DNA of 64,000 bases, taken from contig NZ_CP032762.1 in NCBI RefSeq assembly GCF_003641205.1, positions 3,162,001-3,226,000 on the forward strand, read 5' to 3'. Of the stretch, positions 7,109 through 39,989 are shown in pieces. How positions within the stretch are numbered: the stretch's first letter is position 1; the number at the start of each line of letters is the position of its first letter. The notes below the pieces were generated by a model. It made no database searches. It worked only from the letters and a program-made list of their open reading frames with translations, and had not been told where the DNA came from. The position numbers and the translations under genes were made by a program. The stretch is from Rhodococcus sp. P1Y. Lineage in GTDB: Bacteria; Actinomycetota; Actinomycetes; Mycobacteriales; Mycobacteriaceae.

Positions 7109-8577
7109 CCGACCTGACTTCTCTCGATGCGTCCGAACTCGCGACGCGCATCCACTCCGGCGACGTGTCCGCAGTCGAGGTCACACAGGCCCACCTGGAC
7201 CGCATCGAACAGGTGGACGGTGACATCCACGCATTCCTGCACGTCTCGGGAGCCAATGCGCTCGTTGCGGCAAAAGAGGTCGACTCAGCCCTGGCCGCCG
7301 GGGATGCCCCGGCGTCGGCGCTCGCCGGGGTGCCCCTCGCGTTGAAAGACGTCTTCACCACGACGGACATGCCGACCACCTGTGCGTCGAAGATGCTCGA
7401 CGGCTGGATCTCTCCGTACGACGCCACGGTTACCTCCAAGCTTCGGGCCGCGGGGATTCCGTTGTTGGGCAAGACCAACATGGACGAGTTCGCGATGGGA
7501 TCGTCCACCGAGAATTCCGCGTACGGTCCGACGAAGAATCCATGGGACACCACTCGCATCCCTGGTGGTTCAGGTGGCGGAAGCGCCGCGGCATTGGCGT
7601 CGCATCAAGCTCCCCTTGCCATCGGCACCGACACCGGCGGATCGATCCGACAGCCGGCTGCCCTGACGGGAACCGTCGGAACCAAGCCGACCTACGGCAC
7701 GGTGTCGCGCTACGGACTCATCGCATGCGCTTCGTCGCTGGATCAGGGCGGCCCGTGTGGTCGAACGGTTCTGGATACGGCATTGCTGCACGAGGTCATC
7801 GCCGGGCATGATCCGCGTGACTCGACGTCGGTGGACACATCGGTCGCGTCGGTGGTCGCGGCCGCACGTGCGGGCGCAGCAGGCGATCTGACCGGCGTGC
7901 GCGTCGGCGTCGTCAAGGAGCTCCACTCGGACAGTTACCAGCCAGGGGTCATCTCCTCGTTCGACGCTGCTGTAGCGACGCTGACGTCGTTGGGCGCCGA
8001 GGTCGTCGAGGTGTCTTGCCCCAACTTCGTGCACGCGCTCGCCGCGTACTACCTGATTCTGCCCTCCGAGGTGTCCTCCAACCTCGCGCGTTTCGACGGA
8101 ATGCGTTATGGAGCACGTGCAGGCGACGACGGCACACACAGTGCCGAGCAGGTCATGGCCATCACCCGGGCCGAGGGATTCGGCGCAGAAGTCAAGCGAC
8201 GCATCATGATCGGGACCTACGCACTGTCGGCGGGCTACTACGACGAGTACTACGGTCAGGCGCTCAAAGTCCGAACTCTGATCGCACGAGACTTCGATCG
8301 AGCGTACGAACAAGTCGACGTTCTCGTGTCGCCGACGACACCGACTACGGCGTTCCCGTTGGGGGACAAGGTCGACGACCCGATTGCGATGTACCTCAAC
8401 GATCTGTGCACATTGCCGACCAACCTGGCCGGCCACTGTGCAATGTCGGTGCCATCGGGGATCGCTGCGGAAGACGGACTTCCGGTCGGCCTGCAGATCA
8501 TGGCTCCGGCATTCGCGGACGACCGGCTCTATCGTGTCGGTGCTGCGTACGAGGCAGCACGCGGACCTCTGCGGTAG
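7105..8577 (+). CDS. gatA: Aspartyl/glutamyl-tRNA amidotransferase subunit A
   Basis: The glutaminase half of GatCAB: it releases ammonia from glutamine and channels it to GatB. The 490-aa amidase-signature protein shows the full Ser-cisSer-Lys triad: K81 in LALKDVF, S156 in the PGGSGGGS stretch, and S180 in [10 protein letters not shown]. The spacing between these matches other GatA proteins. The ATG at 7105 overlaps the gatC stop (ATGA). Downstream, a predicted membrane-anchored hydrolase begins 10 bases after the stop. No frameshift or missing residue is seen. Confidence 0.97.
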
Positions 8578-8587
8578 GGCGGGCCGG

Positions 8588-9718
8588 GTGTTCCAGTGGA
8601 TGCACGACGCGTTGCTTGGCGTCGTGCACCTCCGGATTACCGGTGCGGTGCCCTCGGTCGTCACGGTCGTCGCGATACTGACGGTGGTCGGCTGGGTCGT
8701 GTTTCGGCGTCGAAGCGCTGCAGTGCTGGCGGGTTTTCTCGTGATCGCCGCGGCGGCTGCGCAATGGAACACGTTGGTGCTCGGATACCCGACGACCGCG
8801 GCTGTTCTCGGACATCCGCCGGTGGTGGACGCCGATCTGGATGACGTGGAATCCGCTGTGGACAACGTCGTGCGTGGCTGGCCGCTCGAGGATCAGTGGA
8901 CGCCACCCAAGTCGATGCCACCGGTGGGCGATGTAGTCGAGGCGGACATCCCCGGAACCGTATCCGGTTTTCGGGCTCGGCCGGCGTCGATCTACGTCCC
9001 TCCTGCATATCTCGCCGAACCTCGCGCAGACCTACCGGTCCTGGTTCTGCTGACGGGCCAGCCCGGTCACGTGACCGACTGGATACAGGGCGGCCACCTT
9101 GCGCGGACGATGGACACATTCGCAGCAGCACACGACGGCCTCGCTCCCGTCGTGGTGGTGGCCGACGGACTCGGCGACACGGATGCGAACCCGATGTGCA
9201 TGGACTCGAATCTGGGCAACGCATTCACGTACCTGTCGGTGGACGTTCCGAGCTGGATGAAGGAACACCTTCAGGTGTCCACCGACGCCAGCCGGTGGGC
9301 GATCGGCGGATACTCCTACGGCGGTACATGTGCTTTGCAGACTGCTGTTCTCGCGCCCACTGTGTATCCGACGTTCCTCGACATTTCCGGCGAGGACGAA
9401 CCTCGCCGCGGAACGCGCGCCGATTCGATCGCGTCTGCCTTCGGCGACGACGACGAGTCGGTGCGTCGATTCGATTCGGTAGCACCGTTGACAGTGCTCG
9501 GTCAACGTCGATTCGACGGCAGCGCAGGCGCTTTCGTTGTCGGCGCTCAGGACGAAGAATTCCGTCCTCAAACAGCTCGTGCGTTCGATGTCGCCGAAAG
9601 GTCTGGCATGGACGTGCATTACAGCGAACTACCCGGCGGACACTCCATGGATGTGTGGGCGCCCGCGCTCGAGCAAGAGATGGACTGGCTCGGTGCGCGG
9701 ATGGGGCTGGTGGACTAA
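8588..9718 (+). CDS. Membrane-anchored alpha/beta hydrolase (esterase D / mycolyltransferase-like fold)
   Basis: A 376-aa protein with two hydrophobic N-terminal segments (about residues 13-33 and 38-55) followed by a hydrolase domain. The nucleophile elbow is GGYSYGG near residue 240, preceded by MDSNLGNAFTYL, an arrangement typical of the Esterase/antigen-85 superfamily (PF00756). A late PGGHSMDVW probably carries the catalytic His. The domain should lie outside the membrane. GTG 8588 is used (GGGCGGG just upstream); ATG 8600 is the alternative. It starts 10 bases after gatA, so it may be read with it, but it is not part of the mycobacterial gat neighbourhood. Mycolyl transfer is only one possibility; generic esterase is safer. 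Confidence 0.75.
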   Translation: MFQWMHDALLGVVHLRITGAVPSVVTVVAILTVVGWVVFRRRSAAVLAGFLVIAAAAAQWNTLVLGYPTTAAVLGHPPVVDADLDDVESAVDNVVRGWPLEDQWTPPKSMPPVGDVVEADIPGTVSGFRARPASIYVPPAYLAEPRADLPVLVLLTGQPGHVTDWIQGGHLARTMDTFAAAHDGLAPVVVVADGLGDTDANPMCMDSNLGNAFTYLSVDVPSWMKEHLQVSTDASRWAIGGYSYGGTCALQTAVLAPTVYPTFLDISGEDEPRRGTRADSIASAFGDDDESVRRFDSVAPLTVLGQRRFDGSAGAFVVGAQDEEFRPQTARAFDVAERSGMDVHYSELPGGHSMDVWAPALEQEMDWLGARMGLVD

Positions 9719-11100
9719 CAGTCGGGAAGAGAAGTTCCTTGATCGTCGCCGTACCGATGCCCGTGTCCGGCAGGCGCACTCAGCGCCGAGATCAGATCGA
9801 CCGTCGTCTGTACGTAGCTGACGAGTGGAATCCATCGAGGCATCGGCGCGTCCACACGTGCCTCGTCGAGATCCGGCGGCGACGTGATCAGGCCGCTCGT
9901 CCACCTGATCACCGGGTCGGAGGTGTTGGCGAGAATCACTGCCTGTCCCGACGCCACCTCGCCCGCAGGCGGGCCTGCCCAGAGCGCCCCGCAGATGCCG
10001 TCAGGGTCCTCGGCCACAGCAGCGCTGCCCCCGATGGCCCCGAGACTCTGGCCGTAGACGTACAGGTCCGGTCTCGAATCGGGCGGTAGGGCAGCGATGC
10101 GGGTCCGCACAGCGTCGAGCATCGATTTCGCGGAATCTCTCGCCTCGGATTTCGCGAACAGGAAAGTAGCCCAGCTGGGTTGGTACGAGTACTGCAGGCC
10201 AACGGTGGCCACGTCTCCGCCGAATCGATCTTCGATTCCGGACACGGCGTTGGCGTCGATCCAACCGGAACCGGTGGGAACAGCCAGAACCACGTGAGAT
10301 TTGGTGAATCCGCCTGCTCGTTCCATCTCCTGAACGGCGATCGAGGCGCGAAGCGCTGTCGTGGGTGCAGCGTCGACCGGAACGTAGGTCCTTACAGCGC
10401 CCACGTCGTCGCCTCCCGTCGTGAACTTGCGGCCCTCTCGTCCCAATGAGTCCCAGCCGATCGACGACTGCGCGCTGCCCGAGTATCTCGGCGCCGCAGG
10501 AACGGGTAGCGACAGGTCCACGGACGCATTCGCGACGGCAAATCGATCGGACAGCGACGTCAAGGTCATGGGGATGATCACTCCGTACCCGAGGAGACCG
10601 GCGACGACCACAGCGGCCGTGGTCCGTACTGCTCCGAGGGCTCGGACGCCTCGAGCGAACCCGACGCCGAACACGACCAGAATCGCGCAGATCGACACCG
10701 CTCCGCACCACATCTCGGCCCAATGCAACGCAGACGTCGGCTCGGTGCCCATCGCCGCGCGCAGACTGTTCTGCCATCGCGCGTCGGCGACGGTTGCGGC
10801 CGCGATCGCGGCTATCGCGCCGACCGAGCAGATCCGACGGGCGGGCAAGCGTACTGTCGGAGTTCCGATGCTGCAGACCATGCGGTGCAGTGCCGCCGAC
10901 AGGACGAGCCCGAGTGCCGCTGCCACTCCGGTGACGATTGCCTGCGTGAGCGAAGAGCGAGGAAGCAGTGACGGAGCCAGCGACGCAACCACCATGATCG
11001 CAAGCAAAATCGAAGTGGCAGAACGCGGCACGGCGGGATGCGGTGCCCGGGTGTTCGCCGCGGTCGGGGTTACTCGGTGGATCGAGAGGTCCGTACTCAC
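9715..11100 (-). CDS. Membrane alpha/beta-hydrolase family protein (Abhydrolase_9 type)
   Basis: A 461-aa protein whose first half has several hydrophobic helices (for example SILLAIMVVASLAPSLLP and a stretch around VVVAGLLGYGVIIPM), and whose second half carries a hydrolase domain with the elbow GQSLG in LYVYGQSLGAIG. This N-membrane/C-hydrolase layout matches the actinobacterial alpha/beta-hydrolase family with its own N-terminal domain (PF15420/PF10081). The start is set at GTG 11100 because it overlaps the stop of the upstream gene by four bases; the longer frame upstream is Arg-rich and overlaps the phospholipase-like gene. The substrate is unknown; a lipid or cell-envelope ester is plausible given the neighbour. 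The 3' end overlaps the convergent hydrolase gene by four bases. Confidence 0.75.
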   Translation of the reverse strand: MSTDLSIHRVTPTAANTRAPHPAVPRSATSILLAIMVVASLAPSLLPRSSLTQAIVTGVAAALGLVLSAALHRMVCSIGTPTVRLPARRICSVGAIAAIAAATVADARWQNSLRAAMGTEPTSALHWAEMWCGAVSICAILVVFGVGFARGVRALGAVRTTAAVVVAGLLGYGVIIPMTLTSLSDRFAVANASVDLSLPVPAAPRYSGSAQSSIGWDSLGREGRKFTTGGDDVGAVRTYVPVDAAPTTALRASIAVQEMERAGGFTKSHVVLAVPTGSGWIDANAVSGIEDRFGGDVATVGLQYSYQPSWATFLFAKSEARDSAKSMLDAVRTRIAALPPDSRPDLYVYGQSLGAIGGSAAVAEDPDGICGALWAGPPAGEVASGQAVILANTSDPVIRWTSGLITSPPDLDEARVDAPMPRWIPLVSYVQTTVDLISALSAPAGHGHRYGDDQGTSLPDC

Positions 11101-27198: not shown

Positions 27199-28209
27199 AT
27201 GAAGCTCGCCGTCATCGCTGGAGATGGAATCGGCCCTGAGGTCGTGGACCAGGCGCTACAAGTGCTCGACATAGTCGTGCCAGGCGTGGAAAAGACCGAG
27301 TACGACCTCGGTGCTCGACGCTACAACGCGACCGGCGAGCTTCTTCCGGATTCGGTGTTGGACGAGATCCGCGGACACGACGCAATTCTGTTGGGCGCCA
27401 TCGGCGATCCATCGGTTCCGAGCGGTGTGCTCGAACGCGGTCTGCTGCTGCGCGCGCGCTTCGAACTCGATCACCACATCAACCTGCGTCCCGCGAAGCT
27501 GTACCCGGGTGTGGTCGGACCGCTGGAAGGCAACAAGGACATCGACGTCGTCGTCGTCCGTGAGGGAACCGAAGGCCCCTACACCGGCAACGGTGGTGCG
27601 TTGCGGGTCAACACGCCACACGAGGTGGCCACCGAGGTCAGCGTCAACACTCGCTACGGCGTCGAACGGGTCGTTCGTGACGGATTCTCACGGGCACTCG
27701 GCCGTCGCAAGCACGTCACGTTGCTGCACAAAACGAACGTACTCACCTTCGCGGGCAGCTTGTGGGCTCGCACCGTCGAGGCGGTCTCCAAGGACTTTCC
27801 CGACGTCGAGGTCGCCTACCAGCACATCGACGCCGCGATGATCCACCTTGTTACGGACCCGGGCCGTTTCGACGTCATCGTGACCGACAACCTCTTCGGC
27901 GACATCGTGACCGACCTGTCTGCAGCGGTCAGTGGCGGAATCGGCCTTGCCGCCAGCGGAAACATCGACGCGACGGGCACCAACCCGTCCATGTTCGAGC
28001 CCGTACACGGAAGCGCACCGGACATCGCAGGTCAGGGAAAAGCAGACCCGACGGCAGCAATCCTGTCGGTGTCGTTGTTGCTGGCGCACCTGGGCGACAC
28101 TGCGAACTCCGAGCGGGTGGAAGCAGCCGTCGCCGCCGACCTCGCGTCACGCGGATCAGCCGTTGCCAGCACCTCCGAAATCGGTGCCAGGATCGCTGGG
28201 AAGCTGTAG
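27199..28209 (+). CDS. leuB: 3-isopropylmalate dehydrogenase
   Basis: Oxidative decarboxylation of 3-isopropylmalate to the leucine precursor 2-ketoisocaproate, with NAD+. The 336-aa protein belongs to the actinobacterial LeuB group: [16 protein letters not shown] at the N terminus, the substrate Arg residues in [17 protein letters not shown], and [20 protein letters not shown] plus [14 protein letters not shown] for Mg2+ and NAD binding. The ATG has GAGGAG 5 nt upstream. It follows serA closely, and its stop is followed almost at once by the palindromic repeat array. Confidence 0.97.
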
Positions 28210-28227: not shown

Positions 28228-28566
28228 ACCGAATGTCCCATTCGGTCACCTTGCGGGGTGACCGAATGGGACATTCGCTGTTTCTGCGTGCTCGCGGGGT
28301 GACCGAATGAGTCGTTCGCACACTCTGAGTGACCGAATGAGTCGTTCGCACACTCAGAGTGACCGGAATAGACATTCGCTCCCGCTAAGTGACCGAATGG
28401 GACATTCGCTCCCGTCGGGTGACCGAATGAGACATTCGCTCCCGCTGGTGACCGAATGAGACATTCGCTAGTGCTCGGGTGACCGAATGAGACAGTCGCA
28501 CACTCAGAGTGACCGGAACAGACATTCGGTCCCGTCACAGGTGACCGAAACAGACATTCGGTCACC
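28228..28566 (+). repeat. Tandem ~30-bp palindromic repeat array (10 direct copies plus one inverted)
   Basis: This 339-bp stretch fills most of the 375-bp gap between convergent leuB and an MFS gene. The core is close to GTGACCGAATGAGACATTCG, in which CGAATG and CATTCG are inverted halves around 3 bp. Direct copies begin at about 28258, 28299, 28329, 28359, 28389, 28419, 28448, 28479, 28509 and 28541; an inverted copy lies at 28228-28250. Spacers of about 10 bp fall into two families (CACACTCWGA and CTCCCGYYNN). The block around 28349-28385 recurs at +150 bp, indicating a higher-order duplication. No gene is supported in the array: every frame simply repeats every 10 codons. Function is unknown. 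Confidence 0.85.
28230..28277. terminator. 21-bp perfect hairpin after leuB, made from the first two repeat units in inverted orientation
   Basis: The arms 28230-28250 and 28257-28277 are perfectly complementary over 21 bp with a 6-nt loop TTGCGG. The left arm is an inverted copy of the unit that is then repeated downstream. It starts 21 bp after the leuB stop and may terminate serA-leuB transcription. Confidence 0.6.
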
Positions 28567-28584: not shown

Positions 28585-29781
28585 CTATTCGTTCGGCTCG
28601 TGGTCGTCGGGGATCACGGGGATGGAGAGGGCGGGGAAGAGCGCGGAGACGAGGAAGGCTATTGGGAAGCTGACGGCTGCGAGGGCGCCGAACGCGGGCG
28701 GAACCAGTGATGCGGCGATGTACTGCCCAGTGTTCTGCACGCCGAGGGCACGCCCACTCCAGTACGGTCCGGAGAATTCGGCGACGGCGGTGAACGCGAG
28801 CCCGTTCGGTGCGACGGTGACGATCGACGCGACGACGAGAAGCACAACGGAAACGGGGGAGTCGAGCCAGTCGGTCACCGCGAGTGCGAGCATGCTGACC
28901 GTGGCGGACACGGCGACCCATTTGAGGGGACGCATTCGACTCCCGACGCGATCCGACAGCGCGCCGACACCCATGCGTCCGAACGCACCCAAGATTTGAG
29001 ATGCGGTAACGAGGAGACCGGCCGATGCAGCCGACCAACCGCGATCGGTCATCAACCAGACGAGGGCATAGGTCCAGACGACGTACTGCGGAACAACGAG
29101 CAGGATCGACGTCGAGTGGATTCGCCAGAGCTGGCGGCTCGTGCGGTACGGATTCGCAAGCAGTCCCTGCCGTTCGGCAGCGGCACGGCTCGGCCGGGGT
29201 GGATCGACGACGCCGAGGCACAGAACAGCTCCGAGGAGGCAGATGCTCGCGGGCACCAGCAACGCAGCCGAGACGCCATGATCACGGGCGATCGACGGGA
29301 TGGTCAGTGCTGCGATGGCGACCCCAAGAGGTACTGACATCTGCCTGATGCCCATCGCGAGACCGCGACGCTCGGGGGGGAACCATCCGACGACCACTCG
29401 GCCACTGGCGCTGTTGGCGCTCGCCGCAGCCATTCCTCCGAGGAGTAGACACAGGCCGAGCAGGATGAACGAGGTCGTGAAATACGCTGCGAGACTTGCT
29501 AGTGCAGTGAGACCGAGTCCGATTGCCAGGACGAGTCGTTCACCGATTCGGTCGACGAGAACACCCCACGCGATGAGTGTGAGCATGATTCCGACCGTCG
29601 GCATTGCCACGACAATGCCTGCCCGGGCCAGGCTCAACCCGCGATCGTCGTGCAGGGCGGGTATGAGGAATGCAGCGCCGTTGATGAACACGGCACCTGC
29701 CGTCTGAGCGAGCATTCCGAGAGCAAGCATGAGCCACTTGCGCGCGCTGCTCGTCTGCCGAACTCTGTCCGTCGTGGTCAT
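28585..29781 (-). CDS. MFS transporter
   Basis: A 398-aa major facilitator protein with about 12 predicted membrane helices. The loop motif after helix 2 is present as LVDRIGERLVLAIG, and a second, after the central loop, as ALSDRVGSRMRPLKW. The order of helices (for example MLALGMLAQTAGAVFINGAAF first) and the length are normal. The substrate cannot be told. ATG 29781 has GAAG/AGAG-like bases upstream. It points toward the repeat array and leuB, and away from the FAH gene. No partner regulator lies next to it. Confidence 0.88.
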   Translation of the reverse strand: MTTTDRVRQTSSARKWLMLALGMLAQTAGAVFINGAAFLIPALHDDRGLSLARAGIVVAMPTVGIMLTLIAWGVLVDRIGERLVLAIGLGLTALASLAAYFTTSFILLGLCLLLGGMAAASANSASGRVVVGWFPPERRGLAMGIRQMSVPLGVAIAALTIPSIARDHGVSAALLVPASICLLGAVLCLGVVDPPRPSRAAAERQGLLANPYRTSRQLWRIHSTSILLVVPQYVVWTYALVWLMTDRGWSAASAGLLVTASQILGAFGRMGVGALSDRVGSRMRPLKWVAVSATVSMLALAVTDWLDSPVSVVLLVVASIVTVAPNGLAFTAVAEFSGPYWSGRALGVQNTGQYIAASLVPPAFGALAAVSFPIAFLVSALFPALSIPVIPDDHEPNE

Positions 29782-29893
29782 GGCTACTCTTCAATCTCAC
29801 TATGTGGAACAATGATCTTGCAATGTGAACTTCGCATACAGACTGTACACCCGATGCAGAGAGTCGAGCGGAAGGCCGCGCCTGCCTCTGCAG

Positions 29894-29960
29894 GGCCGGG
29901 AGCGTAGCGGGCGGAGTGACCCGTTGGGGCCGGGAGCGTAGCCGGCGGAGTGACCCGTTG
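29894..29960 (+). repeat. Two tandem 33-bp direct repeats (period 34)
   Basis: 29894-29926 and 29928-29960 are near-identical copies of GGCCGGGAGCGTAGCGGGCG continuing to GAGTGACCCGTTG, differing at one base (GCGGG versus GCCGG). They sit in the gap between the divergent MFS and FAH genes, immediately upstream of the FAH -10 box at 29970. Confidence 0.8.
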
Positions 29961-39275: not shown

Positions 39276-39989
39276 ATGAACAAGGCAGAGCTGATTGACG
39301 CCCTGACCGAGAAGTTGGGGTCTGACAGGAGGAGCGCCACAGAGGCTGTCGAGAACATCGTCGACACCATCGTGCGCGCCGTTCACCGTGGCGAGAGTGT
39401 CACCATCACCGGATTCGGTGTATTCGAACAGCGTCGGCGTGCGGCACGTGTTGCTCGCAACCCACGCACCGGCGAGACCGTGCGCGTCAAGCCGACCAAC
39501 GTGCCGGCCTTCCGCCCGGGCGCTCAGTTCAAGGCTGTAATCGCGGGCGGCCAGAAGCTTCCCGCCACCGGCCCGGCCGTCAAGCGTGGATCCTCGGCGG
39601 CTCCGGCCAAGAAGACCGCAGCTGCCAAGAAGACCGCAGCGAAGAAGGCTGCAGTCAAGACGACAGCTCGCAAGACCACCGCGGCAGCGAAGAAGGCGGC
39701 TCCCGCAAAGACGACTGCCCGCAAGGCAGCTCCCGCGAAGACCGTGGCAGCGAAGAAGGCAGCTCCCGCCAAGACGACGGCTCGTAAGACCGTCGCGAAG
39801 AAGGCTCCGGCAAAGGCCGCAGCCAAGAAGACTACGACTGCCGCAGCGGCCAAGAAGGCCCCCGCGAAGACCGCAGCCAAGAAGACCGCAGCGACCACGA
39901 CCGCTGCAGCCAAGAAGGCTCCGGCCAAGACCGCAGCCAAGAAGACCGCAGCGAAGAAGGCTCCGGCCAAGCGCGCTGCACGCAAGTAG
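39276..39989 (+). CDS. hupB: HU family nucleoid protein with long Lys/Ala-rich tail (HupB)
   Basis: DNA-bending and compacting protein of 237 aa. The first ~90 residues are a normal HU domain ([17 protein letters not shown]; the DNA-binding arm includes [22 protein letters not shown]). The remaining ~140 residues are low-complexity KK, AA and PAK repeats similar to eukaryotic histone H1 tails, the actinobacterial HupB/Hlp arrangement. The ATG has GGAGGA 5-6 nt upstream; an in-frame ATG 15 nt earlier is less likely. The tail is encoded by near-repetitive DNA and may vary in length between strains. A strong terminator follows. Confidence 0.95.

Follow-up and report, generated by a model that had tools for sequence, protein, structure and literature searches.

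REP-like repeats are usually attributed to RAYT transposases, and BIMEs bind gyrase or IHF. According to PMC3733652, REP elements of the GTAG and CGTC superfamilies are palindromes of 20-40 bp that occur between genes in high copy number, as singletons, dimers or clusters, mainly between convergent or unidirectional genes and near their 3' ends; the CGTC type lacks a dedicated transposase. The main text of this paper contains no match for "rhodococc" or "actinobacter", and our search of the open-licence PMC literature found no description of the repeat family or motif reported here.

The Rhodococcus repeat resembles REP elements in being a short, extragenic palindrome with many copies, located mainly in convergent and co-directional gaps near 3' ends. 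It differs from them in its units, which begin with GTGA or GAGA, end with TTCG and, as judged by eye, carry no unpaired GTAG or CGTC tag; in its arrays, which run in one direction with a 30-bp tandem period and an end cap; and in its host genus, a member of Actinomycetota. Unlike GTAG REPs, it has no repeat-flanked RAYT (Y1 transposase) gene, PF01797 being found in none of the 11 genomes that carry the repeat (carriers) and in one of 37 genomes of the genus. The arrangement in one relative, G004, is BIME-like, with two units head to head around a short loop, whereas units in the genome that holds our locus, G000, mostly point in one direction. The part of the locus nearest to leuB (28230-28277) is similar to an intrinsic terminator, having a stem of about 20 bp with a T-rich tail on the plus strand and compensatory changes, but the repeat is dispersed genome-wide and most of its clusters have no T-tract. 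In contrast to the unique spacers of a CRISPR, the 10-bp spacers are found repeatedly, both in one array and in different arrays; this, the intergenic position of the units and the lack of any Rfam match at the array agree with the first-pass annotation, which had set aside a CRISPR, an insertion sequence and a coding repeat. On balance, the repeat works most like REP/BIME elements and lies outside the GTAG and CGTC families.

The window, a stretch of 64,000 nucleotides, covers positions 3162001-3226000 of the one-contig, 5.87-Mb genome G000. Here leuB, encoding 3-isopropylmalate dehydrogenase (open reading frame 27199..28209 on the plus strand, stop codon 28207-28209; NF002898 with 575 bits against a cut-off of 393; PF00180), converges with an MFS transporter gene (open reading frame 28585..29781 on the minus strand, 3' end at 28585; PF07690 with 164 bits against a cut-off of 33.4), as the first-pass annotation had it. 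The 375-bp gap between them is taken up almost wholly by eleven 20-bp units, one inverted and ten direct, near GTGACCGAATGAGACATTCG, a count borne out by the unit coordinates. The inverted unit (28230-28249, opposite to the direct units) and the first direct unit form a long stem-loop at 28230..28277, 23 bp past the leuB stop. The direct units form a tandem array on the plus strand (28258..28565), which Tandem Repeats Finder detects at period 30 and at multiples of 30; they start at 28258, 28299, 28329, 28359, 28389, 28419, 28448, 28479, 28509 and 28541. Of the resulting intervals (41, 30, 30, 30, 30, 29, 31, 30 and 32 bp), eight fall within the 29-32 bp initially given for all copies, but the first, of 41 bp, does not.

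The dyad CGAATG-N3-CATTCG, initially assigned to every core, is exact in five of the eleven units and has one mismatch in three, but its inner arms are lost in the units at 28359, 28509 and 28541. Allowing at most one mismatch, it has eight matches in the array and nine in the window, compared with a mean of 0.37 and a maximum of 2 in shuffled windows. The block 28349-28385, said to reappear exactly 150 bp downstream, does recur at that distance, but with 34 of 37 bases identical. The two ordinary-looking spacer families partly make a second, junction (B) dyad, which the first-pass annotation missed; it is present as CACTC-T-GAGTG at 28321..28331 and as CACTC-A-GAGTG at 28351-28361 and 28501-28511 and lost at the other junctions of the array; its ideal form, TCACTNNNAGTGA, is regular in G004. 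The last unit (28541..28565), 19 bp from the MFS stop, is indeed the larger palindrome that had been noticed at that end: it is 25 bp long, GTGACCGAA-N7-TTCGGTCAC, with 9-bp arms ending in GTCAC.

The core occurs throughout the genome. With at most two mismatches it has 216 matches in G000 (120 forward and 96 reverse, full palindromes being counted on both strands, i.e., twice) and none for the reversed control, and the strict pattern has 102 matches, in clusters of one to ten or more. The strict pattern is present in 11 of the 37 genus genomes, with 14-102 matches each, and absent from 26; in these non-carriers, up to two mismatches give 0-3 matches and the controls 0-1. A sample of 397 genomes from the order included 392 outside the genus, of which two gave a single match each; with the reversed control, one genome had one match. 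By leuB, Rhodococcus sp. and Rhodococcoides fascians are the best-matching named relatives, and the leuB gap of two carriers is common to the named strains EPR-157 and 14-2470-1b. The family probably belongs to a single branch within the Rhodococcoides lineage (R. fascians group). The search of the core in this genome and the genus, proposed in the first-pass annotation, thus found dispersed copies in G000 and ten other genus genomes and, with the sharing of gaps, supports its suggestion of a dispersed REP-like family expanded here. The outcome that it had set against its own reading, a core absent elsewhere in the genus and an array random in relatives, did not come about. The replication site that it had also considered gains no support, since dozens of clusters lie all round the chromosome; as a whole, its interpretation is partly supported.

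The anatomy of the clusters was analyzed in three carriers, using 954 kb of G000, 700 kb of G006 and 710 kb of G004. The stretches were picked for clusters, with a few random ones added, and gene calls came from a simple script based on codon usage, whose output matched the open reading frames of the window. Three forms can be observed: 30-bp tandem arrays, lone 25-bp palindromes, and sets of at least two units about 107-130 bp apart around a G-rich module. This module carries GGGTTGCAAC-like repeats of about 18 bp, and the flanking clusters are spaced about 109 bp at L117, L122, L125, L126, L142, L204 and L232; its motif is exclusively intergenic and adjoins clusters in 13/13 cases in G000, 45/46 in G006 and 6/6 in G004. 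The usual element of G004 consists of two head-to-head units, CCGAA-N7-TTCGG, TCACTNNNAGTGA, CCGAA-N7-TTCGG; therefore, A dyads of 17 bp alternate with B dyads of 13 bp, each B dyad lying half-way between two A dyads. The centres of adjacent A dyads are exactly 30 bp apart in 63/83 pairs in G000, 22/36 in G006 and 36/36 in G004, and adjacent pairs are symmetric (inverted) in 34/36 cases in G004 and 17/83 in G000. An exact GTCAC follows the last unit in 14 of 32 arrays of at least three units (8/23 and 6/9) and at most 2 of 125 internal units (one of 34 in G006; for G000, no case among the types that were listed, which left 4 of its 91 units unlisted), and a looser rule of four letters out of five gives 21/32 last and 45/125 internal units. 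This excess indicates that arrays tend to have a cap, the array in the window included. At L115 of G000 (8411-9948), a GNAT-like gene, named by eye, and a second short gene lie between two outward-pointing clusters, and a similar arrangement is seen at L202 of G006.

In these three genomes, convergent gaps hold more clusters than their share of the background, and divergent gaps fewer. After exclusion of seven clusters inside called genes and three at stretch edges, 125 have a known neighbour on either side; 54 of these are convergent, 58 co-directional and 13 divergent, compared with 164, 550 and 333, respectively, of 1047 background gaps of at least 60 bp in the same stretches. The density of GTGACCGAA in G000 is 1.404 per kb between genes vs 0.021 within them, and the median distance from stop codon to array is 28.5-54.5 nt, depending on genome and context. 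Pairing the flanking genes by reciprocal best BLAST left 23 of the 48 G000 clusters unmappable to G006 and 26 to G004. Among shared gaps, G000 and G006 have 20 occupied in both, two in G000 only, one in G006 only and 129 in neither; G000 and G004 have 14, eight (G000 only), three (G004 only) and 107; and G004 and G006 have ten, none (G004 only), six (G006 only) and 84. Because the stretches were chosen for clusters, shared positions are over-represented in these counts; absences are over-counted too, since the script scored leuB in G004 as absent despite its family-like hairpin. Of 16 orthologous arrays compared between G000 and G006, 12 have the same polarity. The species that share cluster positions have a leuB DNA identity of about 83%.

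The 7-bp cores tell another story than the positions. The leading cores are TGAGACA, ACAGACA and TGAGTCG in G000 and CGTCACG, CGGTTCA and CGGCACA in G004. The similarity of cores, out of seven, in orthologous clusters is 4.28 for G000-G004 (shuffled 4.20+-0.10), 4.20 for G006-G004 (4.06+-0.13) and 5.69 for G000-G006 (5.54+-0.14), and within genomes it is 5.14-5.55 (5.48 and 5.24 in the G000/G004 comparison). Because orthologous cores are no more alike than shuffled ones, while each genome has its own set, these comparisons show a pattern of concerted evolution, with the cores being homogenised genome by genome. The simplest mechanism would be gene conversion, or repeated copying from cluster to cluster. 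Identical cores are found in 0.20 of the G006-G004 orthologous pairs vs 0.05+-0.06 after shuffling, possibly a trace of descent.

The first inverted/direct pair at leuB (28230-28277) has 22 pairs without mismatch, namely the 21 perfect pairs noticed in the first-pass annotation and one G-T pair. Its fold z-scores are -6.75 on the plus strand and -8.56 on the minus strand, and a terminator scan gives three overlapping plus-strand matches with a T-rich tail, shuffled sequences giving 0.2 on average. By script and eye, all 11 carriers have a stem 3' of leuB, 18-36 positions long and with no more than two mismatches. In their alignment, 97.7% of cells are paired vs 85.0+-1.5 after shuffling, covariation is 0.389 vs 0.124+-0.025 (0/500 shuffles as high), and both sides are changed in 9/20 pairs. 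The pairing of this predicted stem is thus shown to be conserved. The left unit's own dyad has a single variable inner pair, unpaired in 4/11 carriers, and a test of this dyad together with a second, out-of-register helix found no pairing excess (154/500 shuffles). The most likely role of the stem is to terminate or stabilise the leuB transcript and perhaps that of the opposing MFS gene as well, although the compensatory changes could stem from templated repair inside the palindrome rather than from selection.

In 14 non-carrier genomes, of the fascians type, an unrelated stem follows leuB, with 93.9% pairing vs 89.8+-0.7 and covariation of 0.112 vs 0.036+-0.008 in shuffled alignments. A stem common to the carriers and an unrelated one in the fascians type indicate that a stem at the leuB end predates the array. 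Copy number here does differ between relatives, a comparison suggested at the outset: a single hairpin is found in G010, G021, G026, G029, G031 and G004, and arrays in G000, G003, G006, G018 and G028, so the comparison shows that tandem units were added after leuB in the latter five. The fascians-type hairpin was considered as a rival dispersed family and rejected, its arms occurring once per genome in 13/37 genomes. The remaining five leuB loci belong to G027, G030, G032, G020 and G001 (L159, L163, L164, L166 and L167), genomes of 4.5-5.1 Mb that are near the carriers in leuB and lack the strict repeat but have a CGAATG..CATTCG stem after leuB; a 14-bp stem was found by script in three, and the other two are similar by eye. 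It is possible that this stem is a remnant or a precursor of the repeat, by loss or gain in this group; the leuB tree is weakly resolved.

At clusters other than the one at leuB, pairing of the cores is not in excess within units or, on average, across junctions, and the tandem junctions of G000 and G006 are less complementary than shuffled ones; the outer flanks of clusters are not complementary. Perfectly matched inverted pairs exceed the shuffled level in G006 (2/5) and G000 (1/17) but not in G004 (0.12 vs 0.12). Thus, long hairpins are not what is maintained at most clusters, and the features kept genome-wide are the half-site and the 30-bp spacing. A hairpin with a T-tract precedes the array at 5-12% of array 3' ends vs 4-11% of control ends, and the proportion is 11-29% when the array itself is counted; for length-matched convergent controls it is 1-2% vs 5-9% observed. 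These proportions lend weak support to arrays substituting for terminators. RNA folds at convergent 3' ends have mean z-scores of -3.4, -3.4 and -5.0 for arrays and -2.4, -2.7 and -2.2 for controls, which are thus structured as well. Several clusters adjoin a separate terminator-like hairpin, as seen by eye.

The explanation that we prefer, with a probability of about 0.6, is a dispersed intergenic family of REP/BIME-like palindromes with stable positions and homogenised cores, represented at leuB by a stem with a species-specific expansion. The pair at 28230-28277 would be the species' version of an older hairpin at the 3' end of leuB, a point overlooked in the first-pass annotation. The other nine units are a tandem expansion toward the MFS gene, by what we infer to be slippage or unequal recombination, with the full palindrome as its cap at the far end. 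Clusters stay at the same gene ends across species, with the variable cores homogenised in each genome, probably by conversion or repeated copying. A REP-like family that lacks RAYT in 11/11 carriers, keeps many positions at about 83% leuB identity and is homogenised per genome raises a testable question: by what means dozens of short palindromes scattered over a genome are rewritten together. At leuB, a stem at the gene end is maintained in two branches whose stem sequences are unrelated, one of the stems being built from the repeat family.

Another scenario, which we consider rather unlikely, is a protein-binding array, as also suggested in the first-pass annotation: a dyad-binding protein specific to the clade would use the units as its DNA sites. 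It would have a nucleoid, gyrase-like or insulator function where convergent genes end, and arrays would be multi-site platforms with dyads every 15 bp. The kept half-sites GTGACCGAA/TTCGG around a 7-bp core that varies without covariation point to it, as do the exact 30-bp spacing and the second dyad half-way. However, half-sites and spacing could be explained equally by copying, which alone would keep both; the leuB stem does covary, and the binder itself is putative. A related reading of similarly low probability is an insulator or nucleoid system that co-evolves with its sites and differs from the REPs driven by RAYT; in it, a clade-specific, phase-locked array (17-bp A and 13-bp B dyads, centres 15 bp apart) would mark conserved convergent gene ends and be read by a putative protein whose preferred core shifts by species, all copies being rewritten in step.

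It is improbable that the repeat is a selfish palindrome, useless to the host and moved in trans by a RAYT-like or other transposase. The genome-specific families, the tandem and inverted copies and the gaps filled in one species only (3/23 occupied shared gaps for G000-G006 and 11/25 for G000-G004) would fit such mobility, but many positions are common to species, the sole PF01797 match in the genus is in a non-carrier, G019, and no gene in the sampled stretches is flanked on both sides by clusters within 400 bp. A RAYT/IS200 link was rejected on the latter two grounds. Phage or plasmid origin was likewise rejected, the plasmid and phage collections giving no match to the array; in IMG/VR, 18 contigs have a single match each. 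A local replication-slippage array of no wider meaning, as the 30-bp period and the differing leuB copy number might suggest, is refuted by the dispersed family in 11/37 genomes and the shared positions, slippage being nonetheless a likely way in which copies multiplied.

Some minor observations concern the chromosome and the rest of the window. In G000, with dnaA at about 761 kb, 45 hand-entered cluster positions are distributed as 11, 14, 6, 4, 8 and 2 over six equal bins of distance from dnaA, fewer toward the far side. At 29893-29960 of the window, GGGCCGGGAGCGTAGCCGGCGGAGTGACCCGTTG occurs as a tandem pair of 34-bp copies (97% match) in the divergent gap that precedes the next gene, and a search with its 28-base core and up to three mismatches found no third copy in the window. 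Low-complexity repeats rich in AAGAAG/GCCGCA codons, resembling a lysine/alanine-rich tail, are located at 39606-39959.
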